A DNA stretch of 64,000 bases from Geobacter sp. (GTDB lineage Bacteria > Desulfobacterota > Desulfuromonadia > Geobacterales > Geobacteraceae): positions 1 through 64,000 of the forward strand of contig DAIEGL010000077.1 in assembly GCA_027356255.1 (NCBI GenBank), given 5' to 3'. Of this stretch, positions 25,872 through 49,427 are shown piece after piece. Positions within the stretch are counted from its first letter, which is position 1. Every line of letters begins with the position of its first letter. The notes beneath the pieces were generated by a model. That model saw nothing but the letters and a program-made list of their open reading frames with translations, was not told the origin of the DNA and searched no databases. The translations under genes were made by a program, and so were the position numbers.

Positions 25872-25873
25872 GT

Positions 25874-28499: not shown

Positions 28500-31400
28500 A
28501 TGGGAAAGAAGATGTCGGAAAAAATTCGAGGCACAAATCTGTGGACAAGGTTTAGTCTACTGCTGACTTATGCATTGTTCCTTAGCTTGTGGTTTTGCCA
28601 AGCTTTGTTCCTTCCTGTAGAATCAAACGCTGCAGTTGCTGATCTCATGCACAACAGTGCCAATCCTAAAATAGGAACTACAAAATATGGTACATGGGGA
28701 ACGACCTGGAACTGTGCCACCTGTCATAACGACACAACCACCAATATCAAGATGGTCGTTCCTTCGATTGTTCCACCATGGACCACAACGACGCGCCAGG
28801 TTGTCTTTAACAAGATCACCAGCACGACCGTTACCTATCTGGGGGTGATGGGCAATGACGAGAGGTCGGTTCTGAGCAGGTCGACCAACATCTGCGAAGT
28901 TTGTCACACAAAGACGAAATTTCATCAATACAGCTCAAACTCTGTCACGACGCCGGTGGCCAATGCAACCCATAAGAACCGTGCTGACTGTACCCAAACC
29001 TGTCATCCGCACAGTGCCGGATTTGCCATATCCGTCACGGGCTGTACCGCCTGTCACGGTAATCCGCCGTCCACCACCGCGGAACTTACTACCAACGCCT
29101 TTACCTATGCCGGGGTTCCCGGAGCCCACGTCAAACATAGTTCTTATGCTCCTGCTATAGCTTGTATTACCTGCCATCAGGGGACAAACATTACCATGAC
29201 CAGTGGCGACAACAAAGTGAACCTTGGTTTCCAGATCAACAAAGCCAACTGGCCGCAGTACTCTCCGCCGGCCAACAGCACAGCTGCCAGTGCCGTTGTC
29301 GTGAACAGCAACTACGCCAACTGGCAGGTGGCTGCTCCGACGACTTCAACTACCGCCGCCAACACCATGACCTGTTCCGTATACTGTCATGCCGGCTGGA
29401 CCGGCGCAGGCGGGACTCAAAACCCGGTCAGCTGGGCTACAACCGGTCCGTTGGCCTGTAATTCCTGCCACTACTCGACGCAGACCGAAGTCAATACCGC
29501 CGGTGCCAGTGCTCCGGGAAGCCACTATAAACATGCGGCCTCTACCCAGCAGAATTATGCCTGTACCGCATGCCATGGGGCAACACTGCCGACCACCACG
29601 TCCCACGTCAATGGCGACTCCAAGGTAACCTTCACCGCCGGCGGCAAGTACAAGGGTTTTCCAAACTTTACTTCTGCTAGTGCCAAGTCATCAGGCGCTG
29701 CCTATGGCACCTGTACCGCTACAGCCTGCCACGGTCAGAACAGTCCGGCAGCGTGGGGCACAGCAGTTAATCCTACGTCAGGCAACGTGTGCCAGAAGTG
29801 CCACGGTTCGCTCACCGCTGCATTCAACAACTTCTCGTCGCCGACGATCGCCCCTGGTTATGGCACCGACGGTAGAGATACCGGCGGCAATACCGCTGCT
29901 ACTTCTGCCCGGGTTGGCGCTCACCAGGGCCATTTGCAAGCTCAGAGTGGCATCTCAGACCCCATTCATTGTGGCGAATGCCATACCACACACACAACGG
30001 TTCAGGACAGCACCCATCTGAATTACTCCACCGCCACCATCGCTTTCGGACCACTGTCAAAGGCACAGTCTCACCCATCGCCTTCTGTGACCCGAGTATC
30101 AGGGGCCTTAAACTGCAACGCCGTATACTGCCATTCCGGCAAATACAATACAGGGACTGTGCCGGCCTGGAATAATACGAGTCTCCTCAATGGGACTTTC
30201 CCCAGCGATTGCGGCAAGTGCCATGGTTTGCCACCAGCCACTTCAGACCATACAGGCATCGCTACATTGACGGCACTGCCTATTACTACCTGCGGCTGTC
30301 ATAATAACATTAATTCATCAGCTACCACATATGCCGGAATCTTTTACAACAAGTCATTGCATATCAACGGTATTATTGAAGGTGGAGACTGTCTGTCCTG
30401 TCACAATAAGATTCAAGGGACTGCGCCGAATCAGAGGGCGGCAGTTGTTGGTCAGTTCGCAGCCCAATCCCACCATGTGCAGAAAGCCGGCGGGATTACC
30501 AAGACCGATTGCTACCAGTGTCACATGGAGGCAAACGCCGACGGGTCACCCAACCCTACTTATCACCTGAAGACGAGCAAGGCGTCTGTTGATCTGGCTA
30601 TCTGGAGCGGCGGGGTCCGCAGTACCACCTATATCAGCTATACGGCCAACAGCGCCAACAGGAAACAGGCAGTTAAACTGAACCTGCATTGCCTGGGCTG
30701 CCACAGGGCAACTGGGCCAATCAACCCATTCGGCGATTCATACACACCGTCGAAGTATGCATGGGATGCAAAGAGCATTCAAGAGCGTTACTCGACGCCG
30801 GTTACTACTCCTTGGGGTAAATATAACATTGCTCAGACTAACAAAAAGGCAACGGTTACCAAGGCGCTATCCGCACATGGCAACGCTGTGGCAAACAAGA
30901 GCATGAACTGGGATACCACCAACGGCATAGACGGTGCAACAGCACTGATCGTCGGCGCCACTTCCAACGTAGTTTGTTACGACTGTCATAACTCTCACGG
31001 CTCGACAGTTGCCGGCATCACCAGCCAGTACTCCAGTGCCACAGGCAGAAACAAAGGCGGGATACTCAAGGACATCGTAGCAGGAACCGGCGGATATACA
31101 GCCGATTACAAGCCCGCCGCCCATACAGCGACAGGCCCGGAACATAATACCTTCAACCCGGGCGCGACCTTGTGTTTCGATTGCCATAACACGAAGAGTG
31201 CCGGCGTGCTGATGGCAGGATACACGTCATCTCATAGGGCACCTTGGGGTTATAACAGCACCTTTGGCGTCACCAAGTCCATAGGCGGCTACTCGGATAC
31301 TCCGTATTTCGGCAACTACACGGTGAACTCCGCGAAGCGGTATGTATACAAACAAGGAACCGCCGGGGCCAAAGCGAAGCCGATGGGCGGCCACTACGGC

Positions 31401-32393
31401 ACCAGTATAGCACCGCAGGTTAGCGCAATAACGAAACAGACAGTGGCACCCGGCGTCGCAGTACAACCCGGTATAAACGGCCTCTGTACCCCATGCCACG
31501 ATCCGCACGGCGTATCTCCCAACACCGCCTATATCGCCAATCAGACCTATGCAGTACCGCTTCTGAAGGGTAGCTGGGTCACCTCGCCGTACAAGGAAGA
31601 CGTGGCTGCAGTAAACATCAACAGAGGCGGCGGCAGCACGAACGGGCCGACTAAGGTCGCCAACAACGGCTCGATCCCGGGCTACTATATAGACCAGAAT
31701 ACGTTCGTGGCCGACCTGACAACAAGGAGCACAACCGGCGTACGATTCGCCTCTGTCGCTACCAATGCCAAAACCGGTACCGGCATGCCGAACATACCAG
31801 ATACAACAGGCAACGGCGGGGTATTTGGCGGTCTGTGTGTCCAGTGCCATACAAAGGCAAACCTTACTGATACAGTAGCCGCATCAAGCACAACCTGGAA
31901 GACCAAGAACCGTATCCATCAATCGGTTTCCGGCTGGGCATCCACCGCCGGCGGCAATGCCAGCAACAAAATGCACGCATACACCTGCTCCAAGTGCCAT
32001 GCGCCGCATACTTCCAAACTGCCGCGACTCCTGGTGACCAACTGTCTGAACGTCAACCACAGAAACAAAGTGATAACGGGAGGTTCAGTCCTTGTCGGCA
32101 CACCAACAAACGTAAGAACAACCGCATTGAACGGCCCGGGCAACAGCGGCTACACCACTTCCTCCTCCGGTTCCGGTGCTGGCCGCTTCCCAGCCGGCGG
32201 AGGCCGTTACAGCACCACTACCGCCAGGGCCACAACACCAGGTCCTTGGGGCTTTGGGGTTACCGGAACAGCCGCACCGGCATATCCGGCGCCAGCTGCT
32301 GCATACGGTTCAAACTGTCACCAGTCGTCTACAGCCGGCGGGACAGCGTACAGCCCGACAACCCAGCAATGGAACACTAAGTCACCGTGGTAA
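28500..32393 (+). CDS. Giant secreted multihaem cytochrome c (GSu CxxxxCH...CxxCH type)
   Basis: A 1,297-residue protein with an N-terminal signal (TRFSLLLTYALFLSLWFCQALFLP..SNA, cleavage about 46). I count 17 CxxCH sites (for example CATCH, CEVCH, CITCH, CGECH, CYQCH, CSKCH), two CxxxCH (CTQTCH, CSVYCH), two CxxxxCH (CTATACH, CNAVYCH) and one CGCH, so about 21 or more haems. The mixed CxxxxCH/CxxCH layout is the domain first described in Geobacter sulfurreducens. The chain is strikingly rich in Ser, Thr, Asn and Gly, including a haem-free C-terminal Ser/Gly/Pro region (about 1200-1297) ending NCHQSS...TKSPW. It probably acts in extracellular electron transfer. ATG 28500 follows AAAGGGG. The next genes encode membrane glycosyltransferases, so it may be O-glycosylated (inference). 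Confidence 0.9.
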   Translation: MGKKMSEKIRGTNLWTRFSLLLTYALFLSLWFCQALFLPVESNAAVADLMHNSANPKIGTTKYGTWGTTWNCATCHNDTTTNIKMVVPSIVPPWTTTTRQVVFNKITSTTVTYLGVMGNDERSVLSRSTNICEVCHTKTKFHQYSSNSVTTPVANATHKNRADCTQTCHPHSAGFAISVTGCTACHGNPPSTTAELTTNAFTYAGVPGAHVKHSSYAPAIACITCHQGTNITMTSGDNKVNLGFQINKANWPQYSPPANSTAASAVVVNSNYANWQVAAPTTSTTAANTMTCSVYCHAGWTGAGGTQNPVSWATTGPLACNSCHYSTQTEVNTAGASAPGSHYKHAASTQQNYACTACHGATLPTTTSHVNGDSKVTFTAGGKYKGFPNFTSASAKSSGAAYGTCTATACHGQNSPAAWGTAVNPTSGNVCQKCHGSLTAAFNNFSSPTIAPGYGTDGRDTGGNTAATSARVGAHQGHLQAQSGISDPIHCGECHTTHTTVQDSTHLNYSTATIAFGPLSKAQSHPSPSVTRVSGALNCNAVYCHSGKYNTGTVPAWNNTSLLNGTFPSDCGKCHGLPPATSDHTGIATLTALPITTCGCHNNINSSATTYAGIFYNKSLHINGIIEGGDCLSCHNKIQGTAPNQRAAVVGQFAAQSHHVQKAGGITKTDCYQCHMEANADGSPNPTYHLKTSKASVDLAIWSGGVRSTTYISYTANSANRKQAVKLNLHCLGCHRATGPINPFGDSYTPSKYAWDAKSIQERYSTPVTTPWGKYNIAQTNKKATVTKALSAHGNAVANKSMNWDTTNGIDGATALIVGATSNVVCYDCHNSHGSTVAGITSQYSSATGRNKGGILKDIVAGTGGYTADYKPAAHTATGPEHNTFNPGATLCFDCHNTKSAGVLMAGYTSSHRAPWGYNSTFGVTKSIGGYSDTPYFGNYTVNSAKRYVYKQGTAGAKAKPMGGHYGTSIAPQVSAITKQTVAPGVAVQPGINGLCTPCHDPHGVSPNTAYIANQTYAVPLLKGSWVTSPYKEDVAAVNINRGGGSTNGPTKVANNGSIPGYYIDQNTFVADLTTRSTTGVRFASVATNAKTGTGMPNIPDTTGNGGVFGGLCVQCHTKANLTDTVAASSTTWKTKNRIHQSVSGWASTAGGNASNKMHAYTCSKCHAPHTSKLPRLLVTNCLNVNHRNKVITGGSVLVGTPTNVRTTALNGPGNSGYTTSSSGSGAGRFPAGGGRYSTTTARATTPGPWGFGVTGTAAPAYPAPAAAYGSNCHQSSTAGGTAYSPTTQQWNTKSPW

Positions 32394-32486
32394 GGCATAA
32401 TGGGGCGTCCTGCAAGGGGCGCTCCAATCACCGTAAAATGAGGGGAAACACGAAATAGCAACAACATTATGAAAGGGGGTGCACCT

Positions 32487-32546
32487 ATGAAAAAAAGCTA
32501 CGTAACTCCGAAAATAGTTGGCAGTGCAGTTGTTCATCCCTGCTAA
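32487..32546 (+). CDS. Nineteen-residue peptide MKKSYVTPKIVGSAVVHPC
   Basis: A short gene with a strong ribosome site (AAAGGGGGTG, 7 bases before ATG 32487), stop TAA at 32544-32546 and its own strong terminator 21 bases further on. The peptide has a basic start, a YxxP element (YVTP) like that used for leader recognition in several ribosomally made modified peptides, and a C-terminal HPC. No maturase is seen next to it. It lies 93 bases after the giant cytochrome, probably on the same transcript. The family is unknown to me; it could be a modified-peptide precursor, a small regulator, or a haem/metal-binding peptide. Confidence 0.55.
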   Translation: MKKSYVTPKIVGSAVVHPC

Positions 32547-32567
32547 GCAGTAAAGCTAAAGTTGTAT

Positions 32568-32606
32568 AAAAAAAGGTGAAGCTGAGTTAACAGCTTCACC
32601 TTTTTT
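32568..32606 (+). terminator. Strong rho-independent terminator
   Basis: AAAAAAAGGTGAAGCTG (32568-32584), loop AGTTAA, then CAGCTTCACCTTTTTT (32591-32606). The ten-pair GC-containing stem extends through the A/T flanks, so it can work in both directions. It ends the cytochrome-peptide transcript and separates it from the glycosyltransferase genes. Confidence 0.92.
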
Positions 32607-32656
32607 GATGAGTTATAACAAGAACAATATTGCAATAGCGAGGAAACGTTGAATAA

Positions 32657-34249
32657 ATGAATAATTCAGTTAGGGGGGTGTTTGTTGCTTTATTTTTACT
32701 GATATTCTTTACCTTGTCCTCGATTAGTCTGACCTCTCAATCAGCGACATTTGACGAAGTCCAATATTTCGGCATCGGGAAATATATCTTAAAAAATCAA
32801 AAATGGGATGTGATGGGAGCAATACTGCATCCCCCCTTGTCATATTACATCAATAGTATTCCGCTTCTGTTTGTGAACGAGAATAAACGTTTATGGGAAT
32901 ATGAGGAAACCGACAGAAATCTTGATTTCCTTGGAGCAGTTGATGTCTATCGTGGGCAGGAGCTTCTCTCATCTGTAGATAACCGAAATGATAGGCTTCT
33001 CATCTCATCACGCCTTTTGTTCGTCGCATTGGGACTGTTGCTGGGATATTACATATATCGATTCAGTAGCGCCCTCTATGGCAAGCAAGGCGGCCTCCTC
33101 TCCCTTTTTTTCTTTGTTTTTTGTCCTAACATGCTTGCGTATTCAGGGTTGATCGTACCTGACATGCCGCTGACTGCCTTTTCCTTTATCTCAGTATATT
33201 ACCTGTGGGTGTGCCTGAAAAATGACAATGTAAGGAACCGGCTGTTAGCCGGTTTTTCCCTCGGTCTTGCCCTGCTTTCCAAGTTTACGGCGTTGCTGCT
33301 GCTTCCTTGCGTGCCGGTTCTCAGCGCGGCATTCATGATACGCGAAAGAAAAAATTACCTTGTTCGAGCAGCATTCATTATTGCTGTAGCAGTATTAGTT
33401 CTTTTTCTTGGATATGGATTTGATATTTTGCCGTATTTCCAGGGGATCAAATATCAGTTGACTCATGCCAACGACGGGCACTCGTCTTTCCTCATGGGTA
33501 AGTATTCCATTCATGGCTGGTGGTATTACTATGTCGTGGTTTTCTTATTGAAGACGCCGATTCCGGTATTATTGCTCTTTATTATGGCGCTGGTTATTTA
33601 TTTTATCAAACCGCGAACAAACCGGATCGACAGTCTGTTTCTTCTGTTGCCGATTATGGTCATATTTGTATTTTTCAGCATAGAACATCAATCCATCGGA
33701 ATTCGCTATATTTTGCCGATATATCCGTTCATATTTGCTTTCATTGGCAGCCTCCGGATAACCGGAAAACGATACAGGTATTGTTTGTGCGTCCTGGCTG
33801 CATGGTATGTCGGAACATCGTTATATATAGCGCCGCACTATCTTGCTTACTTTAATGAATTTATTGGCGGTCCAGAAAATGGCTATAAGTATCTGGTGGA
33901 CAGCAACCTGGACTGGGGGCAGGATCTGAAGGGACTGAAAAAGTTCATGGACAGGCATGGTGTCAGACGGATCAGCCTCAGCTATTTCGGCGCTGATTCG
34001 CCGCAACGATACGGCATCAAATACGACTGGCTTCCCAGTCATCACCTGTATAATCCTGCGCCTGGAAAAAAGGTAAGCATACCTCCCGGCCAGTTGATTG
34101 CCGTAAGTGCCACGAATCTTCAGGGAGTGTATCTTGAAAACAATGATCTATTCAAGTGGCTATTACAATATCAGCCTGTTGCAAAGATCGGCTACAGCAT
34201 GTTCATTTATGACATTAAAAAGCCCCCTATTGAGTCTGTCTTCAAATAA
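32657..34249 (+). CDS. GT39-like (PMT/ArnT-type) membrane glycosyltransferase 1
   Basis: A 530-residue integral membrane protein with about eleven to twelve helices. The first periplasmic loop has SATFDEVQYFGIGKY, the acidic D-E motif of the GT39/ArnT catalytic site, followed by HPPLSYYINSIPLLF. Later come LSKFTALLLLP and the C-terminal block NGYKYLVDSNLDWGQDLKGLKKFM, shared with the paralogue at 46214. Such enzymes use polyprenyl-phosphate sugars to glycosylate proteins or lipids on the periplasmic face. It is placed directly after the giant cytochrome, separated by a terminator. Acceptor unknown. Confidence 0.82.
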   Translation: MNNSVRGVFVALFLLIFFTLSSISLTSQSATFDEVQYFGIGKYILKNQKWDVMGAILHPPLSYYINSIPLLFVNENKRLWEYEETDRNLDFLGAVDVYRGQELLSSVDNRNDRLLISSRLLFVALGLLLGYYIYRFSSALYGKQGGLLSLFFFVFCPNMLAYSGLIVPDMPLTAFSFISVYYLWVCLKNDNVRNRLLAGFSLGLALLSKFTALLLLPCVPVLSAAFMIRERKNYLVRAAFIIAVAVLVLFLGYGFDILPYFQGIKYQLTHANDGHSSFLMGKYSIHGWWYYYVVVFLLKTPIPVLLLFIMALVIYFIKPRTNRIDSLFLLLPIMVIFVFFSIEHQSIGIRYILPIYPFIFAFIGSLRITGKRYRYCLCVLAAWYVGTSLYIAPHYLAYFNEFIGGPENGYKYLVDSNLDWGQDLKGLKKFMDRHGVRRISLSYFGADSPQRYGIKYDWLPSHHLYNPAPGKKVSIPPGQLIAVSATNLQGVYLENNDLFKWLLQYQPVAKIGYSMFIYDIKKPPIESVFK

Positions 34250-34341
34250 TCATTCCGAAGCAGTATCCGCCAAGCGGTAGTGATGACAATTGGGCTGTTA
34301 CTGGATGATTACGTTGTACTTCGCTCCGCATATTCTGTAAA

Positions 34342-35820
34342 ATGACGACAATGAGCCAATTATCTCGCAGGAAATTTCTTGTGCTGTCGCTTTATCTGCT
34401 CGCTTATGCCAGTTTCGGCGGATGCCGCAGTAATCGAAAGGTGCTTGGTAAAAACAGCATTTCCGCTCCTTTGGTGGTTGAAGATCACAGCGAACTTCTT
34501 GCGCTTTGGGCTGAGAAGGGGATTAAAAATGCCGTATTGATGAACATCGACACCCATGACGACATCCGTTGGATTCCTGGTCACAAAATTACTGCGTTGC
34601 AAGCGATTTACCAGGCAAAGGACTGGCGCCGTTTTCGCGAAGCCAACAGTAATGGCGATGCGGGCCTGTATAATATCGGAAACTGGATATACGCCGGCGC
34701 ACGGCTCGGTATTTTCAAGGAAGCCTACTGGGTTGTTCCCTTCCCTCTCTTGGAACAGGATAATTGGGTCGATATCCTCCGTCAGTACCTGAAAACTATT
34801 GGTTTCAGCGACGATGATATGCGAACGTTTAACGTCGAAGGGAGCCTGTTTCGCGGCAGTTTTCATGGAATTCCACTTACGATCTGTTGCATAAGGAGTC
34901 TCCCGGCTATCTCGGAACCGTTACTGCTCAGTGTGGATATAGATTTCTTTCCCCGCTACGTTGCAGATCACAACTCCCATATGCTGGCTGCACTGCGAGA
35001 AACATTCGATGCGCTGTACCATCAGAACTACCAGGTGAGGGATTCGGCCATCTGCTATTCTGTCAATGCGGGATACCTGGAAGTAAGGCATCGCTGGGTA
35101 GGCGATGCGGTGATAAATATTGTGCATGATCCCGGCATTATTTATAAAACACCCCATGAACTGCTTGCTCTGCTTCAGAAACTCGATGTGGCCTTCATGA
35201 ATGAAGAGTCTATCAGGATGCTTGAACTGATAGACTCGTATCATCATACTGCTCACAGGGAATCCGCGTTGCAACTTTATAAAGCCTTCGCCCATGTCAT
35301 GCTGGGGCAGACCGAACTGGCTTATTCAACGGCAATAGATTTATGCAAGGCTGATCGGCTTTACTGTCCGGTTTTTCCGCGCATTGCCAATTATTATGTC
35401 AGTATTGCCAGTAACAGGGAAGCAGAACGGTTTTTCAGTACCGGTTTTTCGCTCAACCCCGCAATGGATCTCGGCCTGGTGGATTTTGCCCTCTGCCTGC
35501 GGGATAGCGGCAAATTTGCCGAAGCCATAAAATATATGGAGCAGGAAGTGCAAATCCGAGGGTCCTTCCCGGTAGAATTCATGATAACCAATACCTGCAT
35601 CATGATGGGAGACAGTGCCCTGGCAATGTACCATCTGCAAAAAGCCGTCTCCTCCCTGGGGAATTCCCCATATGCAGTCGTAGCTGACAAATGTACGTTT
35701 GATGACATAACCAATGTAATAAGATATTGCCAGCGCAATGGCTTGTTGAAAAAGACCGCACTGATAGTCGGCAGCCCTGAAATAAAGCGCATGTTTCAAA
35801 AATTTTCTGTCAAAAAGTGA
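34342..35820 (+). CDS. Tat-exported UPF0489 (arginase-fold) lipoprotein with TPR-like tail
   Basis: A 492-residue protein. The N-terminus SQLSRRKFLVLSLYLLAYASFGGC combines a twin-arginine motif (SRRKFL) with a lipobox (FGGC, Cys about 28), so it is exported folded and lipidated. Residues about 40-300 match UPF0489, an arginase-like fold: MNIDTHDDI and LLSVDIDFFPRY supply the paired Asp/His metal ligands. Residues about 310-470 are helical repeats (ALQLYKAFAHVMLGQTELAYSTA, DFALCLRDSGKFAEAIKYMEQE), TPR-like. No reaction is established for UPF0489; an amidohydrolase-type metal enzyme is plausible. Its position inside the glycosyltransferase island suggests a role at the envelope. Confidence 0.75.
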   Translation: MTTMSQLSRRKFLVLSLYLLAYASFGGCRSNRKVLGKNSISAPLVVEDHSELLALWAEKGIKNAVLMNIDTHDDIRWIPGHKITALQAIYQAKDWRRFREANSNGDAGLYNIGNWIYAGARLGIFKEAYWVVPFPLLEQDNWVDILRQYLKTIGFSDDDMRTFNVEGSLFRGSFHGIPLTICCIRSLPAISEPLLLSVDIDFFPRYVADHNSHMLAALRETFDALYHQNYQVRDSAICYSVNAGYLEVRHRWVGDAVINIVHDPGIIYKTPHELLALLQKLDVAFMNEESIRMLELIDSYHHTAHRESALQLYKAFAHVMLGQTELAYSTAIDLCKADRLYCPVFPRIANYYVSIASNREAERFFSTGFSLNPAMDLGLVDFALCLRDSGKFAEAIKYMEQEVQIRGSFPVEFMITNTCIMMGDSALAMYHLQKAVSSLGNSPYAVVADKCTFDDITNVIRYCQRNGLLKKTALIVGSPEIKRMFQKFSVKK

Positions 35821-35863: not shown

Positions 35864-36886
35864 ATGAAGAAGTTTCTTCTTGTTTTACTTATGGTCCTGG
35901 CTGCATTCAGCAGTCGGGCTATGGCATCGAACCCTGCAGACAAGATTCAGCAGATGCAGGAAGATCTTGGCGCAACAGCAGAACTGCAGATGGAAAATAA
36001 CGGCAAAGTCCTAGCATGCAAGGATGGAGGGACAAAAACGGTCACAGTTTCCATCAATGCAGATCAAATAGAGTACTTGGGCAATTATAACAGTTGCAGA
36101 GAAGGCACTTCCGAGCGTGACGGCATCTATAAAATCACAGTTCGAGGTAACGAAGTCTTGACGGACACGGAAAGCCGTTCCATAAACGGCGAACTGTTTG
36201 ATGCCGCAACATCAGGAGACCTGGTTAAGGCAAAAAATCTGATTCTCAGAAAAGCCGATCTCAATTTTACAGCACGCAAGTTATCGGATGATGGCAGCTA
36301 TATTGATGGATGGACAACGCTTATGTCGGCCGTGGTAAATGGTCACGTCGAAATGGTGCAACTGCTGGTTGCTTCCGGAGCTGACGTGAATATGAAGGAC
36401 AGCAACGGAGCGACTGGATTGTGGTTGGCCGCGAATTCCGGCAATCTGCCCATTGTGAGGATTCTAGTGACAAAGGGCGCCGCTCTAAACGATCAAAATG
36501 CGGGCGGCCTGACATCGCTTATGATAGCCACAGTGGGGGGGCATTACGACGTAGTGAAATACTTGCTCGCGTCCAAGGCCGACGTAAATCTGAAGCATAA
36601 GGAAGGCGATACCGCATTGATGTTTGCATTGGCATCAGGGCGCAACGAAATCGCCAGTCTCATTATCGATGCGGGGGCGGACCTGAATATCCAGAACAAA
36701 TACGGTGTTACCGCTCTGATAATTGCGGCAAACGAAAACAATGTGGAAATGGCAGGCAAACTGCTGGACAAAAAGGCGGATCCGAACCGGAAAATAGAGG
36801 GGGGTAAAACTGCCCTGGATATTGCATCCTTTCGTGGGAATACGCTGATAACAGAGATGCTCAAAAAAGCTTCCCCTGCATTGTAG
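35864..36886 (+). CDS. Secreted ankyrin-repeat protein
   Basis: A 340-residue protein with a signal peptide (MKKFLLVLLMVLAAFSSRAMA). An N-terminal domain (about 22-105) without known motif contains two Cys (ACKDGG, NSCREG). Six or so ankyrin repeats fill about 110-335, for example GWTTLMSAVVNGHVEMVQLLVASGADVNMKDSNG and GDTALMFALASGRNEIASLIIDAGADLNIQ. It is a periplasmic protein-binding scaffold. The start has GGAG (CTGGAGTATTT) upstream. It stands 15 bases before the first TMTC-like gene, so it is probably cotranscribed with it. Confidence 0.88.
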   Translation: MKKFLLVLLMVLAAFSSRAMASNPADKIQQMQEDLGATAELQMENNGKVLACKDGGTKTVTVSINADQIEYLGNYNSCREGTSERDGIYKITVRGNEVLTDTESRSINGELFDAATSGDLVKAKNLILRKADLNFTARKLSDDGSYIDGWTTLMSAVVNGHVEMVQLLVASGADVNMKDSNGATGLWLAANSGNLPIVRILVTKGAALNDQNAGGLTSLMIATVGGHYDVVKYLLASKADVNLKHKEGDTALMFALASGRNEIASLIIDAGADLNIQNKYGVTALIIAANENNVEMAGKLLDKKADPNRKIEGGKTALDIASFRGNTLITEMLKKASPAL

Positions 36887-36901
36887 CTCAAGGATTTGAG
36901 T

Positions 36902-40572: not shown

Positions 40573-40674
40573 CCTCCCGAGGCTGAATACAACTTTTGCA
40601 GCTCTTTTCTTGAAAGTTCCGGCCAATTATTTTCATAGCGAAATCTTTAATCGTTTTCTGCAGGCGGAGGAGTG

Positions 40675-42312
40675 ATGCAGCAAAAATGGAAGCATTGGCG
40701 GCTTTTTTCGGGAAGCGTTTTTGCTGCGCTGGGAACGTTCCTCATCTTTCTTCCCGCAATGAACAATAAGTTTGTCGAGCTCGATGATTTTGGCTACATC
40801 GTTGATAATCGCCACATTGACACCCTCGATTGGCAGACCGTTGTATGGGCATTCACACAGTTTCATGAAGCAAACTGGCATCCGCTCACCATGCTCTCGC
40901 TGGCGCTTGACCGCCGTATCTGGGGGCTCACGCCATCCGGCTTTCATCTGACAAACGTCATCATCCACAGTTGTACGGTCTTCTGTGTCTGTTTTCTGTT
41001 TGCTTCCTTGCTCAAGGTGGCATCGCTGAATGGACCCTCAACTGAAACATGGAATCCATGTAACCTTCCGGTTACTGTCGGCAGTATTGCCGGAGCGCTC
41101 TTATTCGGCCTGCATCCATTGCGGGTGGAATCGGTCGTATGGGCAAGTGAGCGGAAGGATGTACTTTGCCTCTTTTTTACCGTGGCTGCGCTCTGGTGTT
41201 ATCTCAGGTATGCTGAACAGCGTTCTGTCAGGCCGTTAGAGCATTTTGCGAGTTTCGGCACATACTGGTCGGTGCTCTTTATGGCATGTCTTGCATTGTT
41301 GAGCAAACCGACGGCAGTGAGTCTTCCCCTGGTGCTCCTGATTGTCGACTGGTACCCCCTTGCGAGAATAACGGACCGCCACAGTTTCTTGGGTGCTGTG
41401 AAAGAAAAAGTGCCACTGTTTCTGATGACGTGTGGAGCCGGCATCCTTACAGTGGTCGCCCAGAACTATGCCATCATACAGGCACCCGTTGTGGGTGCTT
41501 CTTCCAGGCTGCTTGTCGCCTGCAAGGCTTTAATATTTTACCTCTGGAAGATACTCTGGCCGGCTGGACTTTCCCCGATCTACCCGCATCCGGGAAACGT
41601 TATCGAGAGCGCACCTCTGGAGTACCTGCTCTATGCCTCGGTGTTGGCGACCATTTGCATTACGGCGACGCTATTGGGGAGGCGGCTGCGGATCTGGCCG
41701 GCGCTCTGGCTCTATTACCTCGTCACCCTGGCGCCGATGCTGGGCATCATTCAGGTCGGCGGTCAATGGATTGCCGACAGGTATACCTATCTTCCCGCGC
41801 TCGGCATCTCTCTGCTCTGGGGGGGAGGCGGTGCGTGGCTTGTAGGCAGGTTGCGGCAGAAAGGACATGCCGGCCTGGCTATGTTCCTTATCGGAGTCGC
41901 GGTCTGCCAACTCGTGTCCTATGCAGGTCTGACACTCCGCACCATCCCGTATTGGCGCAACACGGAAACAATCGCGACGAGGGTGATTGATATCATGCCC
42001 CGTCAGGTTGGTGCGGCGTACTACGCCCGGGCGAAATACCGCAATGAGAAAGGCGAGTACGGTCGTGCTCTGGAGGATGTAGACGCAGCCATGTCGATAG
42101 CTCTGCGGAGAGCCAGCAAGTCGAGATACGCCGAGCTTTCCATGACGCAGTCAAAAATTCTCAGAAATCTTGGCAGGCTTCCAGAGGCGCTTGCCGCTGC
42201 GGATTGGGCCATCCAGACGAGTGTAGTCGAACCACCGGTTGAGTACATCGAGTTCAGAAACGAGCTGGCGCAGAACCTTGCCGACAACCCTTCTCTCCCA
42301 CAATTACAATAA
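40675..42312 (+). CDS. TMTC-like membrane glycosyltransferase (copy C)
   Basis: A 545-residue protein. GT-C landmarks are VELDDFGYIVDNRHIDTLDW (here the motif reads ELDDF), NWHPLTMLSLALDRRIWG, SGFHLTNVIIHSCTVFCV, FGLHPLRVESVVWASERKDVLCLFF, LSKPTAVSLPLVLLIVDWYPL and IADRYTYLPALGISLLWG. The tail (about 430-540) carries one or two TPR-like units (GEYGRALEDVDAAMSI, LGRLPEALAAADWAIQT). GGCGGAGG lies 4 bases before ATG 40675. It resembles copy A more than copies D and E. Confidence 0.8.
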   Translation: MQQKWKHWRLFSGSVFAALGTFLIFLPAMNNKFVELDDFGYIVDNRHIDTLDWQTVVWAFTQFHEANWHPLTMLSLALDRRIWGLTPSGFHLTNVIIHSCTVFCVCFLFASLLKVASLNGPSTETWNPCNLPVTVGSIAGALLFGLHPLRVESVVWASERKDVLCLFFTVAALWCYLRYAEQRSVRPLEHFASFGTYWSVLFMACLALLSKPTAVSLPLVLLIVDWYPLARITDRHSFLGAVKEKVPLFLMTCGAGILTVVAQNYAIIQAPVVGASSRLLVACKALIFYLWKILWPAGLSPIYPHPGNVIESAPLEYLLYASVLATICITATLLGRRLRIWPALWLYYLVTLAPMLGIIQVGGQWIADRYTYLPALGISLLWGGGGAWLVGRLRQKGHAGLAMFLIGVAVCQLVSYAGLTLRTIPYWRNTETIATRVIDIMPRQVGAAYYARAKYRNEKGEYGRALEDVDAAMSIALRRASKSRYAELSMTQSKILRNLGRLPEALAAADWAIQTSVVEPPVEYIEFRNELAQNLADNPSLPQLQ

Positions 42313-42331: not shown

Positions 42332-44185
42332 ATGAACAATTCCCGGATTGATAGATTACGACCCCACCTGCCGTTGCTGCTCCTGTTGATTGCGACCATC
42401 GCTACCTTTGGCCGGATCACCGGGCACGACTTTATTTTCAACTGGGATGACAACCGGTATGTGGTAGAGAATACCGCTATTCAGGGGTTTTCCTTTCAGC
42501 ACCTGCGCGAGGTTTTCACCTCGTACTATGTCGGGAATTATGCGCCGGTGCAGATGCTTTCCTACATGCTGGACTATGGGCTCTGGGGGCTCAGGGCCGG
42601 TGGCTTCCTATTCACCAATATCATTATCCATGCGGCGAGCGGGCTCCTGTTTTACCAACTCCTTATGCGGTGGCATGGTGACCGTCTGCTCGCATTGGTT
42701 GCGGCTGCACTTTTCCTGATCCATCCGGTACAGGTGGAGTCGGTTGCCTGGGTTTCCCAGCGGAAGAATCTGCTCGCCATGTTTTTCTTTCTCCTTGCCT
42801 GGCATGGGTACTGTCGTTATCGCGATGCGGAAGTCGGGGCGGGGAGGCTTGCCTATCTTGTTTCTGTGGTTGCTTTTGTGGCGGCGCTACTGGCAAAGTC
42901 GGTAGCGGTGATCTTTCCGGTGGTTCTGGTTCTGCATGACTTCTGCTTTATGGATGAAGGCCGCCGTCTGCGGCTGAAAGACAAGGTTCCGTTTCTCCTT
43001 GCCGCAGCCGTTGTTGCCGAGGTTGCCTTGTACAGCCAACAGGCCGAATTAGGTGGCGGCAGGGCCGATTTTTATGGAGGAAGCCCTCTGGCGACCTTCT
43101 ATACAATGCTGCCGGTCTTCTGCCGCTACCTCGGCATGCTGATCTGGCCATTCGGTTTGAGTGCCGTCTACGCCCCATCGATTCATCAAACAATTGATCC
43201 CACGGTAGCCGGTGCTGCGTTACTGCTTGCCGGTATGGCCTTTGGAGGATGGCATTTATTCAAACGCGACCGGAGACTCGGCTTCTGGTGGGTCTTTTTC
43301 TTTATCGGACTCCTGCCCGTCTCCCAGATTGTGCCGTTGGTCACCCTGATGAATGACCGCTATCTCTATTTTCCCATGCTCGGGGTGGCTGCTCTTGCCG
43401 GAGCCGGTGCGGTATTCCTGCGGAACCGGTTCCGGACCCGGCCGGCACTTCCTTCCGCGATGCTCGTCTTTTTACTTTTTTTGCTGTCGATTATCACCTT
43501 TCTGCGGGCTGGGGTCTGGCACGACTCACTCGCACTCTGGAACGACGCTGTCATAAAAAGCCCGACGGCGTCGTATGCCTGGTCAAGCCTCGCCGAAGTC
43601 TATTTCCGGGACTTGAGGGTGGACGAATCTATCCATGCCTATGAGCACAGTCTTGAACTGGACCCGAAGAACAAAATGGCCATAGCCGCTCTTGGACCTA
43701 TGTACACTGAACTTGGCGAGCTTGACAAAGGATATGCCATGCTGACGAAGTTTCTGAAACTGCAGCCCCGGGATGTAAAGGGATGGGCCTACCTGGGTAT
43801 TAATTATATGCAGCGGGGGGAATACGTTGAGGCGGAAAAGATGTACAAGAAGGCGCTTGCCATTAAACCTGATTCAAAGAAGGTGCTGATCCTGCTGGGG
43901 GGGCTTGCACTCCAGCGCAGACTCTTTGGTCAGGCGCGTTCTTACTTCAGCCAGGCTGAACGTATAGGGGCAAATGATCCGGAAACGGCCTTTCGGCTTG
44001 CTTGCGTGGCTTCCCTTTCAGGCCGGTCAGAGGAGGCGTTGGGGTGGCTTGAGAAGGCGCTGGAACGAGGCTACCGTGATTTCGGTAATCTTTACGATAA
44101 TAAGGAACTGTCTGCGCTCTGGAATGAACCTCGCTACACTATGCTGATGCAGCGATATTTTCCGGAGATGTATCAGGGTCGTTAA
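42332..44185 (+). CDS. TMTC-like membrane glycosyltransferase with TPR array (copy D)
   Basis: A 617-residue protein. GT-C landmarks are GHDFIFNWDDNRYVVENTAIQG, NYAPVQMLSYMLDYGLWG, GGFLFTNIIIHAASGLLFY, FLIHPVQVESVAWVSQRKNLLAMFF, LLAKSVAVIFPVVLVLHDF and LVTLMNDRYLYFPMLGVAAL. TPR repeats at about 410-600 include AYEHSLELDPKNKMAIAALGPMYTELGELDKGYAML. It is a close paralogue of copy E (same start pattern NSRIDRLRPH / NSWIERFRPH), pointing to a tandem duplication. The frame is open upstream, overlapping copy C, but ATG 42332 begins the conserved N-terminus. Confidence 0.82.
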   Translation: MNNSRIDRLRPHLPLLLLLIATIATFGRITGHDFIFNWDDNRYVVENTAIQGFSFQHLREVFTSYYVGNYAPVQMLSYMLDYGLWGLRAGGFLFTNIIIHAASGLLFYQLLMRWHGDRLLALVAAALFLIHPVQVESVAWVSQRKNLLAMFFFLLAWHGYCRYRDAEVGAGRLAYLVSVVAFVAALLAKSVAVIFPVVLVLHDFCFMDEGRRLRLKDKVPFLLAAAVVAEVALYSQQAELGGGRADFYGGSPLATFYTMLPVFCRYLGMLIWPFGLSAVYAPSIHQTIDPTVAGAALLLAGMAFGGWHLFKRDRRLGFWWVFFFIGLLPVSQIVPLVTLMNDRYLYFPMLGVAALAGAGAVFLRNRFRTRPALPSAMLVFLLFLLSIITFLRAGVWHDSLALWNDAVIKSPTASYAWSSLAEVYFRDLRVDESIHAYEHSLELDPKNKMAIAALGPMYTELGELDKGYAMLTKFLKLQPRDVKGWAYLGINYMQRGEYVEAEKMYKKALAIKPDSKKVLILLGGLALQRRLFGQARSYFSQAERIGANDPETAFRLACVASLSGRSEEALGWLEKALERGYRDFGNLYDNKELSALWNEPRYTMLMQRYFPEMYQGR

Positions 44186-44256
44186 TTATTTAGTAAGTTA
44201 GAATTGATTGTATGCGCTGTTTGGGCAGAAAACAGCTTCGTTAACGTAGGGGTATT

Positions 44257-46122
44257 ATGATCAATTCCTGGATTGAAAGATTCCGGCCTCACAGGGGGCC
44301 GGTACTGCTTCTCATTATAGCTGTGTTCGTTGTTTATGGCCGTATCCTCGGCCATGACTTCATACCCAACTGGGACGACAAGCTTTATGTTACTGATAAT
44401 GCAGACCTGCTGAGTTTTTCCTGGGAAAATATCCGGACGGTATTCAGTAGTTATTATGTCGGCAATTATGCTCCGTTGCAGATGCTCTCTTATATGCTGG
44501 ATTATACGCTTTGGGGGCTTTGGCCCGGCGGCTTCCTGTTCACGAACATTGTCATTCATGTCATGAACGGACTTTTGCTCTACTGGCTCTTTCTGAAATG
44601 GTACGATAATCGGCTGCTGGCGATGATTGGTGCGGCATTCTTTCTGCTCCATCCGGTTCAAGTGGAGTCGGTTGCATGGGTCTCGCAACGCAAAAACCTG
44701 CTTGCCATGTTCTTTTTCCTACTTGCCTGGGAGGAGTACTGCCGTTATCGCGAGGCTGAGGTTGGCAAGGGGAAATTTGCCTATGCCGCATCTGTTGTTG
44801 TCTACGTGCTGTCAGTGCTGGCCAAATCGGCCTCAGTGATCTTTCCTGTGGTTGTCGTTCTTTTTGATCTCTGTTACCCGTCAAAAGACCGCCGTGTTCG
44901 GCTGCTGGACAAGCTCCCGTATATCCTTGCGGCCGGGGTTATTGCTGCCGTTGCCATGCAAAGCCAGATGCCGGATCTGGGCGTATGGGGGCAGGGCGGA
45001 GGTCGGGCGACCGAATATTACGGAGGAAACGCTCTGGCGACCTTTTTTACCATGTTGCCCGTTTTTTGCCGCTACCTTGGCATGCTTGTCTGGCCAACGG
45101 GCCTGAGCGCCGAATATAACCCTCCCATCCATGATTCCCTTGACGCAACCGTTGTTATGGCGGGCTTTCTGCTTGCAGTCATAGCCCTGTTGTCTTTCCG
45201 CCTTTTCAGAGCTGATAGGCGGAAAGGATTTTGGCCATGTTTTTTTCTTATCGCATTTTTGCCTGTATCCCAGATCGTTCCGTTGGTCACCCTGATGAAC
45301 GACCGCTATCTTTATTTTCCGATGATAGCCATTGCCGGGCTCACAGGCGCCGGCGCGGTATTTCTGCACGAGCGTATCGGAATGCATCGGATACGGTTCT
45401 CTCTCCTTCTTGCCTTGCCGCTTATACTGTTGGCGGGTGTTTCCTTTCAACGTGCCTCGGTGTGGCAGAACGAAATAACTCTCTGGCGTGACGCGGTTAG
45501 GAAAAGTCCAAACAAATCAATTACATGGGAAAGGCTTGGCGAAGCAGCCCATCGCTTTCTGCCGGCAACAACGAATGAGGCTCTGTACGCGTACAAGCGA
45601 GCATTGGAGCTAGATCCATCTAGCGATCTGACAAGGTATAACCTTGGCATTTTGTATACCGATATAGGTGAAATTGACAAGGGGTTTGAGACGTTTACCG
45701 CTCTGTTGCAGCATAATCCCAACAATGTTATGGGTTTGGCCGCGCTGGGCGAGATTTTCCAGTACCGGGGGGATTACGACAAAGCTGAAAAGGCTTTCAA
45801 ACGGGCACATGCGGTTCAACCTGAGTCGGTTCAGGTGCTTACCTTGCTCGGCAATCTAGCCCTCATACAGGGGCGCCTGGATCAGGCCCGCGACTACTAC
45901 AGCCAAATCGAAAAACAGAGGAGTAATGATCCGCAAGTAGCATTTCAATTAGCCTGTATAGAGTCTATGGCGGGGCAGGCTGGGGCATCGGTTTTGTGGC
46001 TGGAGCGCTCTTTGCAATGCGGATACCATGATTACAACGCCCTGATGGCGAGTGAGGAGCTGGCACCGATCCGTGCCGATCTTCGCTTTACCGAATTGAT
46101 GCAGCGGTACTTCCCGAAATGA
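44257..46122 (+). CDS. TMTC-like membrane glycosyltransferase with TPR array (copy E)
   Basis: A 621-residue protein and near twin of copy D. Landmarks are GHDFIPNWDDKLYVTDNADLL, NYAPLQMLSYMLDYTLWGLW, GGFLFTNIVIHVMNGLLLYW, FLLHPVQVESVAWVSQRKNLLAMFF, LAKSASVIFPVVVVLFDL and LVTLMNDRYLYFPMIAIAGL. The TPR tail has AYKRALELDPSSDLTRYNLGILYTDIGEIDKGFETF and GDYDKAEKAFKRAHAVQPESVQ. Both D and E carry a GGG(R)ATEYYGG- or GGGRADFYGG-type loop before a conserved LATFxTMLPVFCRYLGMLxWP segment absent from A and C. Confidence 0.82.
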   Translation: MINSWIERFRPHRGPVLLLIIAVFVVYGRILGHDFIPNWDDKLYVTDNADLLSFSWENIRTVFSSYYVGNYAPLQMLSYMLDYTLWGLWPGGFLFTNIVIHVMNGLLLYWLFLKWYDNRLLAMIGAAFFLLHPVQVESVAWVSQRKNLLAMFFFLLAWEEYCRYREAEVGKGKFAYAASVVVYVLSVLAKSASVIFPVVVVLFDLCYPSKDRRVRLLDKLPYILAAGVIAAVAMQSQMPDLGVWGQGGGRATEYYGGNALATFFTMLPVFCRYLGMLVWPTGLSAEYNPPIHDSLDATVVMAGFLLAVIALLSFRLFRADRRKGFWPCFFLIAFLPVSQIVPLVTLMNDRYLYFPMIAIAGLTGAGAVFLHERIGMHRIRFSLLLALPLILLAGVSFQRASVWQNEITLWRDAVRKSPNKSITWERLGEAAHRFLPATTNEALYAYKRALELDPSSDLTRYNLGILYTDIGEIDKGFETFTALLQHNPNNVMGLAALGEIFQYRGDYDKAEKAFKRAHAVQPESVQVLTLLGNLALIQGRLDQARDYYSQIEKQRSNDPQVAFQLACIESMAGQAGASVLWLERSLQCGYHDYNALMASEELAPIRADLRFTELMQRYFPK

Positions 46123-46213
46123 AAGTCGCCCCAGTGTTAGGGGGCATTTCCTGGAAAGACGTTTCTGATTTGTCCCATTTGCTTGCAGGCAAAATGAGTT
46201 ACACAACCTTTTT

Positions 46214-47791
46214 ATGAAAAAAATCAATTCAATTTCGCCAACATATATTGCGCTTTGTTTCGCGTTTCTTTTTTTTATCCAGTCCTTTACTGCCAGTCTC
46301 AATCACTCACTGACGTGGGACGAACCAACCTTTATTTCGGCAGGATACGCCTTCTTGAAAGGTGGCGAGTTCCGCTTCAATCCAGGACACCCCCCCTTGA
46401 TACAGTTTTTGGAAGCAATTCCTCTGTTGACGATGGATTTGCGTTCACCGTCACTGTCGTATGAATATTGGGCGAAATGGGACAATCCGGTCGTGGCATT
46501 GGGAAAGACGTTAATCTTTGAAAGCGGTAACGATCCGGTTCAGATTGCATTTTGGTCGAGATTGCCCATTCTCGTATTGGGGACACTGCTGGTATTTTTC
46601 GTTTTTCTCTGGGGGCGGAATCTGTATGGCGCCTGGTCCGCGCTCGTCGGTACCGCACTCTGTGCGCTATGCCCCAATCTACTTGCACATGCGGGTCTTG
46701 CGACAGCAGACATGGGATGCACCGTATTTTTCTTTGCTTCGTGCTGGTCATTCTGGTTCGCATACAAGAAAAACAAGATATGGGGCTGGATTTTGTGCGG
46801 AACAGTGGCCGGTCTGGCGTTTATCTCAAAATACACTGCACTGGTACTTGTTCCAACTTTCATAGTTGTTGCTGCTGTTGATAGCATTACACACCGCAGC
46901 AGGCCAGTCGTGAAATCGTGGCTGCAAGCATTTCTCATTGTCAGCGTGACTGCCTTTATCGTCGTGGGGCTTTCGTATGGTCCTCGGCCGGGATGGGGTA
47001 TCTATCTCCATAGTCTGCGGGAGATTAACTTGGATAATATACCGGGTTATAAATGGTATCTGCTCGGCAACTTCTCGGCAACCCCCTGGAAGTACTATGC
47101 TCTGGCCGCTTTTGCTTTGAAGACCTCTTTCGGGAGCTTGCTGCTGTTGGTTATAGCTTTAATGACGACACTGAAGAGAGGGGACAATCGTGAAGATCTC
47201 CTTTTTGTGATCTTTCCGGCCTTGATGCTTATAATCGCATCATTTTTCGACCAGACAAATATCGGATTACGTCGCATACTGCCGGCATTGCCTTTATTGT
47301 ACCTTTTTACCAGCCGGATAATGAGCCGCATTCCCATGCGGCTACCTTACACTGCCCTGGTTACCGTTCTTATTTTATGGACAGGTGTCGAAACGATACG
47401 GATTTACCCACACCATCTTTCCTATTTCAGCGCGATGTTTGGCGGTCCACTCAACGGTCCCCAGCTACTTGACGACAGTAACATCGATTGGGGCCAGGAT
47501 CTCCCTTATCTCGCACGCTGGCAACGGCAACATCCGGAGGCCGGAAAAGTGCGCCTTGCATACTTTGGCACAGCCGATCCGCGGGCATACGGTGTTGATG
47601 CCGAGCCGTTCATGATGTCGGAGGGCGAAATGCTCGCCCCACTTCCGGGTACGTACGCCATAAGCTCTCATTTGCTCGTGGGATGCAAGTTATTGGTCCC
47701 AAAGTACGGACCGAGGGTAGATTGGCTGGCTACCTACAAAGTCAGGGATCGGGCCGGATATTCCATATACATCTATCGGTTTCCGCAATAG
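46214..47791 (+). CDS. GT39-like membrane glycosyltransferase 2
   Basis: A 525-residue integral membrane protein, paralogue of the protein at 32657. SLTWDEPTFISAGYAFLKGG gives the acidic D-E motif, GHPPLIQFLEAIPLL matches HPPLSYYINSIPLLF, LAHAGLATADMG matches LAYSGLIVPDMP, FISKYTALVLVP matches LSKFTALLLLP, and NGPQLLDDSNIDWGQDLPYLARW matches the C-terminal block. About eleven helices. It is the last plus-strand gene of the island and is convergent with copy F, with only 19 bases between the stop codons. Predicted polyprenyl-sugar-dependent transferase; acceptor unknown. Confidence 0.82.
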   Translation: MKKINSISPTYIALCFAFLFFIQSFTASLNHSLTWDEPTFISAGYAFLKGGEFRFNPGHPPLIQFLEAIPLLTMDLRSPSLSYEYWAKWDNPVVALGKTLIFESGNDPVQIAFWSRLPILVLGTLLVFFVFLWGRNLYGAWSALVGTALCALCPNLLAHAGLATADMGCTVFFFASCWSFWFAYKKNKIWGWILCGTVAGLAFISKYTALVLVPTFIVVAAVDSITHRSRPVVKSWLQAFLIVSVTAFIVVGLSYGPRPGWGIYLHSLREINLDNIPGYKWYLLGNFSATPWKYYALAAFALKTSFGSLLLLVIALMTTLKRGDNREDLLFVIFPALMLIIASFFDQTNIGLRRILPALPLLYLFTSRIMSRIPMRLPYTALVTVLILWTGVETIRIYPHHLSYFSAMFGGPLNGPQLLDDSNIDWGQDLPYLARWQRQHPEAGKVRLAYFGTADPRAYGVDAEPFMMSEGEMLAPLPGTYAISSHLLVGCKLLVPKYGPRVDWLATYKVRDRAGYSIYIYRFPQ

Positions 47792-47810
47792 TCTTGCCGA
47801 ACTTTACATA

Positions 47811-49427
47811 TCACCAGTCAATCGCCCCCCTCTCGTTTCCTGCGCGCTCGAAGTCGTTGTTTGCTTCTTTCAGTCTCCCCCATGCCTTTAACGCAAGCCC
47901 GCGATGATAAAAATAGACCGGGCGGGGGGACATGGCGATGGCGACATTAAAATCGTTTACCGCTTCTTCATAGCGCCCTGCATGCGATAAAGCGTCCCCC
48001 CGCAAGGCATAAACGTTGTAGATGTCGAGCAGCCCCGCATTTGTGGCAATGTCGATTGCGGTTGTCAAATCATAAATCGCCGCAGGGTAGTTCCCGGTCG
48101 TCAGGTAATACGCCCCACGGTCCTTATACGCTCTTCCTATGGGCTGACCATCTATTACGCGCGACCAGAGGGTTCCCGTATTCTTCCATACATTTATGAG
48201 TCGCAAGGTCGTTCCTGCATAAAACAGGAGCAAGAACGCCAGTGGGACAACGACTAGGTATGGGACGTAACGGTTGGTCGTTCTTCTCGCTTTAGTAAAC
48301 GCCATGGTTATCGCGGCTGCTGCAACGATGCTCGGGAACACTGCGGGAAGATAGGTGAACCGGGCCGCAAAGGCTTGTTCTCCGTTTTGCGTGAAGCCCA
48401 ACACCGGCAATAATGGGAGAACGAAGGCCAGCCAAGTCGCGAGGACCCAATGTCGCTTTCTCCCGAGATAAATACAATAGCAGGAGAAGACGGCAGCAGC
48501 GGCGGTTTTTACAGCAAAGACATAAGGTATCGTCTTTGGAAGCACATAAAAAGGGAGAATTCCCACCGGCCACAATAATAATCTGCCATATTCGAACAGA
48601 CCGTTGCCGGCAATGATGCCCCTTAAGCCATAGGAAAGCTCGCTGCCCGGAACCATTATATCGTCGGCCATGATGATGGTGACGAAGGTCATTGCTGCCG
48701 CGATGATCAGATACGGCACTTTTTCTGCCATGATCCGAAGGAGTTTTCCCTTCCGCATCCTTCCCAAAGGATACCAGTCTGCTACGAGCAGCATTGCCGG
48801 GAGGACGACGCTTACCGACTTTGCCATTAACGACAGGATGAAAAGTACCAGGGAAAAAAGGTACGCACGGGTTGCGTTTCCTTTCTCAACTCCCTCTTTT
48901 ACCTGGGCGTAACGGAGATAGCACAGTATGGCGCCCAATGAGAAAAGCCCGTTCAGGACATCCTTGCGTTCTGTCACCCAGGCAACCGACTCCACCCGCA
49001 GGGGATGGATGCCGAACAGGAGCCCTGCCAGGAGCAGCATTCCCGGGCGGAGGTGTTGGTGCTCCGATGGTGCATACTCTTCCAATCTTTTCCAGAAGAG
49101 CCTATCTGCGATGAGGACAACAAGGAAGGAGTTTATGGCATGAAGCAGGATGTTCGTAAGGTGGTACCCTATCGGTTCCAGCCCCCAGAAACGGTAATCA
49201 ATCGCAAAGGAAATGCTGGTGAGCGGCATCCAGAAGCTGACCGTCGGTTTGGTGAATGCGGCAACGAGAAGATTCCAGTCCAAGTGTCTGATGGCGGTGT
49301 TATAGAGGATGTAGTCAGGATCGTCCCAAAGGACGAAACCGCAGGTGAGTGCCTGCAGATACACTATCAATGTGATCAGAGCCACTGCCAGCGCGATTTT
49401 AAGCGTTCCATTGCTGATAGATTTCAT
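47811..49427 (-). CDS. TMTC-like membrane glycosyltransferase with TPR (copy F)
   Basis: A 538-residue protein, closest to copy A: CGFVLWDDPDYILYNTAIRHLDWN, FWMPLTSISFAIDYRFWG, IGYHLTNILLHAINSFLVVLIADRLF, FGIHPLRVESVAWVTERKDVLNGLF, LMAKSVSVVLPAMLLVADWYPLGR and FAARFTYLPAVFPS. TPR-like tail at about 440-530 (GNYPAAIYDLTTAIDI, GRYEEAVNDFNVAIAM). It lies on the opposite strand from the other copies, so either one copy was inverted or it arose by a separate duplication of copy A. ATG 49427 directly follows an in-frame TTG and lacks a strong ribosome site. Confidence 0.8.
   Translation of the reverse strand: MKSISNGTLKIALAVALITLIVYLQALTCGFVLWDDPDYILYNTAIRHLDWNLLVAAFTKPTVSFWMPLTSISFAIDYRFWGLEPIGYHLTNILLHAINSFLVVLIADRLFWKRLEEYAPSEHQHLRPGMLLLAGLLFGIHPLRVESVAWVTERKDVLNGLFSLGAILCYLRYAQVKEGVEKGNATRAYLFSLVLFILSLMAKSVSVVLPAMLLVADWYPLGRMRKGKLLRIMAEKVPYLIIAAAMTFVTIIMADDIMVPGSELSYGLRGIIAGNGLFEYGRLLLWPVGILPFYVLPKTIPYVFAVKTAAAAVFSCYCIYLGRKRHWVLATWLAFVLPLLPVLGFTQNGEQAFAARFTYLPAVFPSIVAAAAITMAFTKARRTTNRYVPYLVVVPLAFLLLFYAGTTLRLINVWKNTGTLWSRVIDGQPIGRAYKDRGAYYLTTGNYPAAIYDLTTAIDIATNAGLLDIYNVYALRGDALSHAGRYEEAVNDFNVAIAMSPRPVYFYHRGLALKAWGRLKEANNDFERAGNERGAIDW

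Follow-up and report, generated by a model that had tools for sequence, protein, structure and literature searches.

A candidate O-glycosylation island around a giant multihaem cytochrome in Geobacter sp.

The island and the closest described systems

It is already known that the animal O-mannosyltransferases TMTC1-4 combine a GT-C membrane domain with a following TPR region, carry a DD motif in the first loop, and act as several paralogues on repetitive extracellular proteins (PMC7801869). In Geobacter, the nanowire cytochromes OmcS and OmcE, which are extracellular multihaem proteins with surface glycans, have been described as glycosylated and OmcZ as not glycosylated, and the glycans were proposed to insulate the wires (PMC9473688). 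The enzyme that glycosylates OmcS and OmcE is named in no paper found in the open literature, a search that most subscription papers lie outside. Here we describe a stretch of 64,000 nucleotides of a Geobacter sp. genome (the window, part of contig C146 of 78,021 bases in a 3.4-Mb draft assembly), in which eleven genes between positions 28500 and 49430 unite a giant cytochrome with eight predicted GT-C glycosyltransferases. We consider it rather probable that this island forms a module for protein O-glycosylation, devoted to a multihaem cytochrome outside the cell, and this function is the best supported one because OmcS and OmcE are reported to be glycosylated, the responsible enzyme is unnamed in that literature, and one of the enzymes has a predicted GT-C fold.

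The comparison with described systems shows both likeness and difference. Unlike animal TMTC1-4, the island enzymes would work in the bacterial periplasm rather than in the endoplasmic reticulum, they leave the Pfam family DUF1736 unmatched, and their client would be a multihaem cytochrome. The window cytochrome is much larger than OmcS and OmcE, is of the CxxxxCH type and is no OmcE, although TMTC genes do stand in the OmcE loci of relatives. Likeness to PMT/GT39 enzymes (Pmt1, Pmt4, the M. tuberculosis PMT) is given by PMT_2 domains in two island genes and by the fold match of a TMTC-like protein to Pmt1 and Pmt4, whereas the island genes have no MIR-domain match and are grouped with one cytochrome. 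ArnT and other bacterial GT-C lipid glycosyltransferases share the GT-C fold and the expected polyprenyl-phosphate donor; ArnT, however, lacks a TPR tail and targets lipid A. Another glycosylated multihaem cytochrome is the 16-haem cytochrome of Desulfovibrio gigas, according to the title of a 2007 structure paper cited in PMC11936953, which does not state its glycosylating enzyme.

The genes of the island are as follows (coordinates in the window, strand, description and basis):

28500 to 32393, +, giant Ser/Thr-rich CxxxxCH/CxxCH multihaem cytochrome, 1,297 residues, proposed client (TIGR01904, Cytochrome_C7, haem motifs)
32657 to 34249, +, GT39a, PMT_2-type GT-C (PMT_2 51.3 bits; invariant D33-E34)
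34342 to 35820, +, Tat-type lipoprotein with predicted arginase-like N-terminal domain and TPR C-terminal domain (model mb7f3321ebaf5)
35864 to 36886, +, exported ankyrin-repeat protein, module partner (Ank_2 274.5 bits)
36896 to 38581, +, TMTC-like GT-C with TPR, no. 1 (Pfam TPR, shared invariant residues)
38632 to 40572 (longest open reading frame from 38596), +, TMTC-like GT-C with TPR, no. 2 (Pfam TPR, shared invariant residues)
40672 to 42312, +, TMTC-like GT-C, no. 3 (shared invariant residues; no Pfam TPR match)
42332 to 44185 (alternative start 42239), +, TMTC-like GT-C with TPR, no. 4 (clade of OmcE-locus TMTCs)
44257 to 46122, +, TMTC-like GT-C with TPR, no. 5, modelled, 621 residues (clade of OmcE-locus TMTCs)
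46214 to 47791, +, GT39b, PMT_2-type GT-C (PMT_2 62.2 bits)
47811 to 49430, -, TMTC-like GT-C with TPR, no. 6, convergent (shared invariant residues, TPR-family matches)

The first ten genes, from the cytochrome to GT39b, share one strand and are separated by 9 to 263 bases, and the eleventh, TMTC-like no. 6, is convergent to them. Coordinates and gene content agree with what an earlier, sequence-only reading of this DNA had claimed, and its description of the cytochrome as Ser/Thr-rich and multihaem was borne out as well. The protein matches TIGR01904 (CxxxxCH/CxxCH domain) with 45.7 bits (cut-off 27) and Cytochrome_C7 with 61.7 bits (cut-off 24.8), and it contains 17 CxxCH, two CxxxxCH and two CxxxCH motifs. 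Ser and Thr account for 22.9% of its mature form, four standard deviations above the 10.9 +/- 2.9% seen in 1,827 genes from related loci that do not encode cytochromes. The protein belongs to a large group of paralogues, with matches to about 11 stretches of the host genome and matches in many relatives; homologues beside TMTC and ankyrin genes occur among the latter. A further observation is an N-terminal export region, MGKxxxxKIRGxNLWxK, common to giant cytochromes (window 28500-28620; L060, L061, L063, L082) and conserved above what is expected of a signal peptide.

Both GT39-like genes carry the PMT_2 domain well above its curated cut-off of 26.1 bits, and a set of invariant residues is common to all six TMTC-like genes. 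The predicted structure of TMTC-like no. 5 is of high confidence (predicted local distance difference test, pLDDT, 94.1; predicted template modelling score, pTM, 0.90). VIA-align superposes residues 1-430 on STT3 (Z 21.7 over 331 residues), AglB (Z 20.8), ArnT (Z 19.1 over 335 residues), Pmt4 (Z 18.6) and Pmt1 (Z 18.0), and residues 455-607 on the O-GlcNAc transferase TPR superhelix (Z 18.9). As modelled, the protein is a GT-C membrane domain at the N-terminus followed by a TPR superhelix. The pair D40-D41 is kept in 39 of 39 diverse TMTC-like sequences, and in Geobacterales its two residues are found in 131 and 132 of 133; it lies in the first extracytoplasmic loop and corresponds to the acidic motif which, in TMTC, ArnT and Pmt1, was identified with the active site (PMC7801869). 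K190 is likewise kept in 39/39 and is compatible with the KE(T/Q)xxT motif of EL3, the next residue being mostly S or T, not E.

The sequence-only reading had ascribed TPR tails to all six TMTC-like proteins, which holds for most of them: Pfam TPRs were found in four of the five genes scanned and TPR-family matches in the sixth gene, but Pfam found none in 40672-42312. Membership of the TMTC family in the strict sense did not hold, since PF08409 (TMTC/DUF1736), by which animal TMTCs are usually recognised, gave no match at E 0.01 in the five genes scanned, and therefore we write TMTC-like and do not place the proteins in that family. A PF08409 search of the host genome was also without match, with controls equally silent, so that this search is uninformative. 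Elsewhere, in Geobacter sp. AOG1 (L122, 10001-11803), an in-frame stop breaks one of the TMTC-like genes.

Recurrence of TMTC genes beside cytochromes in relatives

A census of TMTC-like clusters in relatives had been proposed beforehand as the check that could speak against the pairing with cytochromes, and in this census (forty stretches around TMTC genes of relatives, each no longer than 20 kb) the association recurs, which is a favourable outcome. Three contexts were seen. The first consists of a giant cytochrome with GT39 directly downstream, TMTCs and an exported ankyrin protein (genomes G013 and G022, partly G018), and sister islands of this kind carry DPM-like GT2, epimerase and PIG-L genes. 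The second has the order purH-TMTC-purD-purE-resB-ccsA-two cytochromes-NHL lipoprotein-OmcE-large outer-membrane-like protein, often with a second TMTC and a DPM-like GT2 coming next. The third is giant cytochrome-lipoprotein-TMTC-resB-ccsA (G004, G023, G030). Orthologues of GT39a (at least 580 bits) stand directly downstream of the giant cytochrome in two genomes; one in G122 shares its locus with TMTC, ankyrin and giant cytochrome, and one in G037 is on a TMTC contig.

The ankyrin protein offers an anchor that is independent of both cytochrome and TMTC, and it gives the strongest of these tests. Of 141 genomes, 15 hold its orthologues, at 16 loci in all, and a giant-cytochrome homologue lies within 5 kb at 11 of the 16 (P between about 1e-7 and 3e-12 according to the density assumed), G013 staying outside this count with its cytochrome about 13 kb distant. 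A TMTC gene is present within 3 kb at 13/16 of these loci, and most of the exceptions are on short contigs or by contig ends. The giant-cytochrome/TMTC/ankyrin module is found in five genera of two families, in differing surroundings. Seen from the TMTC clusters, a giant-cytochrome homologue lies within 10 kb of 10 out of 78 (2.4 expected, p 1e-4), and the haem-ligation gene resB within 15 kb of 16 out of 46 (1.19 expected).

The tetrahaem protein of the second context matches PDB entry 7tfs_A (E 1.2e-53), which we take to be the OmcE filament of G. sulfurreducens. In the order, 20 of 42 OmcE loci, from 13 genera, have a TMTC gene within 20 kb, where 3.75 would be expected (p 7.5e-12), and in G123 it is directly downstream of OmcE. 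Strains in which OmcE has a linked TMTC include Geobacter sp. AOG1, Geomobilimonas luticola and Geotalea sp. SG265. That any glycosyltransferase would cluster at OmcE is rejected, as two control families, Wzy_C and the non-TMTC PMT_2 genes, show no such clustering by their listed coordinates; the linkage of TMTC with cytochromes is thus specific relative to these two families. Among 20 arbitrary control stretches, none had a TMTC gene, ResB or a giant cytochrome, and two had a multihaem cytochrome. In a tree of 133 TMTC domains, nos. 4 and 5 of the window (42332 and 44257) fall in a clade that holds many OmcE-locus TMTCs, the OmcE label on leaf 47811 being disregarded, as it probably stems from a weak match of other cytochromes in the window. 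At the OmcE loci of the host and of G003 (L207, L209, L210), a DPM-like GT2 is retained downstream of OmcE.

The lipoprotein and the surroundings of the island

The third gene of the island, which the sequence-only reading had called a Tat lipoprotein, encodes a protein with a Tat/lipobox-type N-terminus, and its model adds a predicted arginase-like domain in the N-terminal part and TPRs in the C-terminal part. This model was built from three sequences and is of moderate confidence (pLDDT 76.2); in it the N-terminal domain matches the peptide arginase OspR (8brp_C) with Z 14.0 and a root-mean-square deviation of 3.1 over 188 residues, and the other listed structural matches fall mainly on the TPR half. 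Residues H49, D70-x-H72-x-D74 and D199-x-D201 coincide with all six manganese ligands of OspR (H, DxHxD, DxD; PMC10028609). A homologue that adjoins the giant cytochrome in G025 (L135) has kept DxHxD (as DTHDD) and DxD (as DTD), and in a more distant homologue (L132) both motifs are degenerate. Pfam found weak TPR matches and nothing else in the window lipoprotein, with UPF0489, the OspR family, unmatched there and reaching 16.0 bits against a cut-off of 27 in the L135 homologue. Unlike OspR, whose substrates are precursors of ribosomally synthesised and post-translationally modified peptides, the protein joins a Tat/lipobox-type N-terminus and a TPR fusion to the predicted arginase fold. It is possible, going by this model, that it resembles a peptide arginase in function and brings about a second modification of the cytochrome, of Arg to Orn.

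The island is AT-richer than its flanks (GC content 51.1% versus 57.2-57.7%, with third-position GC, GC3, also lower), a composition suggesting that it was acquired horizontally. Neither for the ankyrin protein nor for GT39a could an orthologue be found in the four further genomes examined from the genus. Upstream of the cytochrome (17956-27358) there are beta-helix, carboxypeptidase-regulatory-like, ResB-like, TPR, YeeE-like and phosphonate-binding-type genes, partly recurring next to the sister islands of G013, G018 and G022. On the other side, 53781-62061 holds a second cytochrome cluster with a 13-haem-motif protein, NHL proteins, a 5-haem protein, a 661-residue protein (no Pfam match, possibly a porin) and a 10-haem protein; this cluster looks like a porin-cytochrome conduit.

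Proposed function, alternatives and meaning

Gene content, the predicted fold of one enzyme, the acidic motif and the linkage to giant cytochromes, OmcE and resB were seen directly, and from these we infer the catalytic activity, donor, acceptor and physiological role of the module. To hypothesize, the cytochrome would be exported, receive its haems and then be glycosylated in the periplasm, where the six TMTC-like and two PMT-like GT-Cs would move sugars from polyprenyl-phosphate donors onto its Ser and Thr residues. The TPR superhelices, expected on the face of the active site, may hold the long repetitive acceptor, and the paralogues may split sites or sugars among themselves, as is thought for animal TMTC1-4. 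The exported ankyrin protein would be a conserved partner of the module, perhaps a scaffold, and the glycan would probably insulate or protect the cytochrome and govern its packing. The DPM-like GT2 and epimerase genes of the sister islands count in favour of such a module. An O-mannose modification, as the sequence-only reading had it, is not supported as stated, and we do not adopt a mannose-specific reading.

Several observations weigh against this proposal. At 20 kb, the association of giant-cytochrome homologues with TMTC clusters is weaker (p 0.009), and all p-values given here treat placements as independent and ignore shared ancestry, many of the assemblies being drafts. In the Foldseek search with the model of no. 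5, ranked by E-value, the top matches were TPR proteins only, and because of this the GT-C assignment rests on the model and VIA-align; sequence profile A2 had no GT-C match in the PDB, and TPR proteins alone were among the best 60 PDB matches of profile A4. The giant cytochromes of relatives have 15-25% Ser and Thr, so that the richness of the window cytochrome is typical of its class. No polyprenyl-phosphate sugar synthase is found within the window island itself. The host and G003, of the same genus, have an OmcE locus without TMTC, the OmcE locus borders sugar-metabolism genes, and the genome sets do not include G. sulfurreducens, the species where glycosylation was seen. Beyond Geobacterales, in Bacteroidota, Planctomycetota, Nitrospina and others, TMTC loci showed no cytochrome neighbours, and therefore the link with cytochromes appears to be peculiar to this order. 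Finally, there are very large TMTC arrays (L200-L205, L074-L076; G093, G104, G115, G039), with up to 46 matches in one genome, where genes for B12/radical SAM proteins, a DPM-like GT2, carbamoyltransferase-like proteins and epimerases occur but no cytochrome lies within 12 kb; since such arrays and loci exist without cytochromes, there must be other clients or glycans. The claim that the cytochrome is the client of the TMTC/GT39 cluster is therefore narrowed: the linkage recurs in the module, at OmcE and with resB, but cytochromes are not the sole client.

These arrays bear most directly on the main rival, which we hold to be unlikely but to be taken seriously, namely that the TMTC-like and GT39-like enzymes build or decorate a surface lipid or polysaccharide (lipopolysaccharide core, O-antigen or exopolysaccharide), as ArnT and Gtr-type GT-Cs do, and are near cytochromes since both reside in surface or metal-respiration islands. 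The array genes for radical SAM/B12 proteins, GT2 and epimerase are of the kind typically seen where complex glycans are assembled, the structural matches include ArnT, and the OmcE loci run on into sugar-metabolism genes; however, one TMTC gene of the resB-ccsA-cytochrome locus sits between purH and purD, apart from the sugar genes, and Wzy_C (the O-antigen polymerase/ligase) and ordinary PMT_2 genes show no such linkage to OmcE. In addition, the TPR tail and the giant-cytochrome/TMTC/ankyrin module indicate a protein acceptor.

A protein acceptor could still be another surface protein, such as a pilin, an adhesin, or a beta-helix or NHL protein, with the cytochrome a mere neighbour. Beta-helix, NHL and ankyrin proteins do recur at these loci, and the arrays without cytochromes fit this as well, but it is cytochromes that come back in three different layouts (the giant-cytochrome island, the OmcE locus, and cytochrome-lipoprotein-TMTC-resB-ccsA), and OmcE is a reported glycoprotein, so we regard this explanation as improbable. 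Least probable of all is that the genes merely travel together, functionally unconnected, on the AT-richer, horizontally acquired island, which would suit its base composition and the four genomes of the genus without the orthologues, but not a module kept in five genera of two families amid different surroundings.

A wider version of the glycosylation module, which we put forward only tentatively and think rather unlikely as a whole, is an extracytoplasmic maturation line for one giant cytochrome, with haem attachment, O-glycosylation by TMTC-type and PMT enzymes, and Arg-to-Orn conversion by the Tat-exported lipoprotein; the TMTC-type enzymes would then be the missing nanowire glycosyltransferases, in parallel to those acting on animal cadherins.

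The sequence-only reading knew of no description of such a system, which has to be corrected, as glycosylation of OmcS and OmcE was already reported (PMC9473688); it is the candidate machinery that appears to be the new part, and enzymes of this type are the first concrete candidates for adding the sugars of nanowire cytochromes. With TMTC genes linked in named isolates, the question of cytochrome glycans becomes a simple deletion experiment. If the proposal is true, bacterial TMTC-type enzymes would act on cytochromes much as the animal ones do on cadherins, and the glycan dressing of proteins for extracellular electron transfer could be adjusted genetically.

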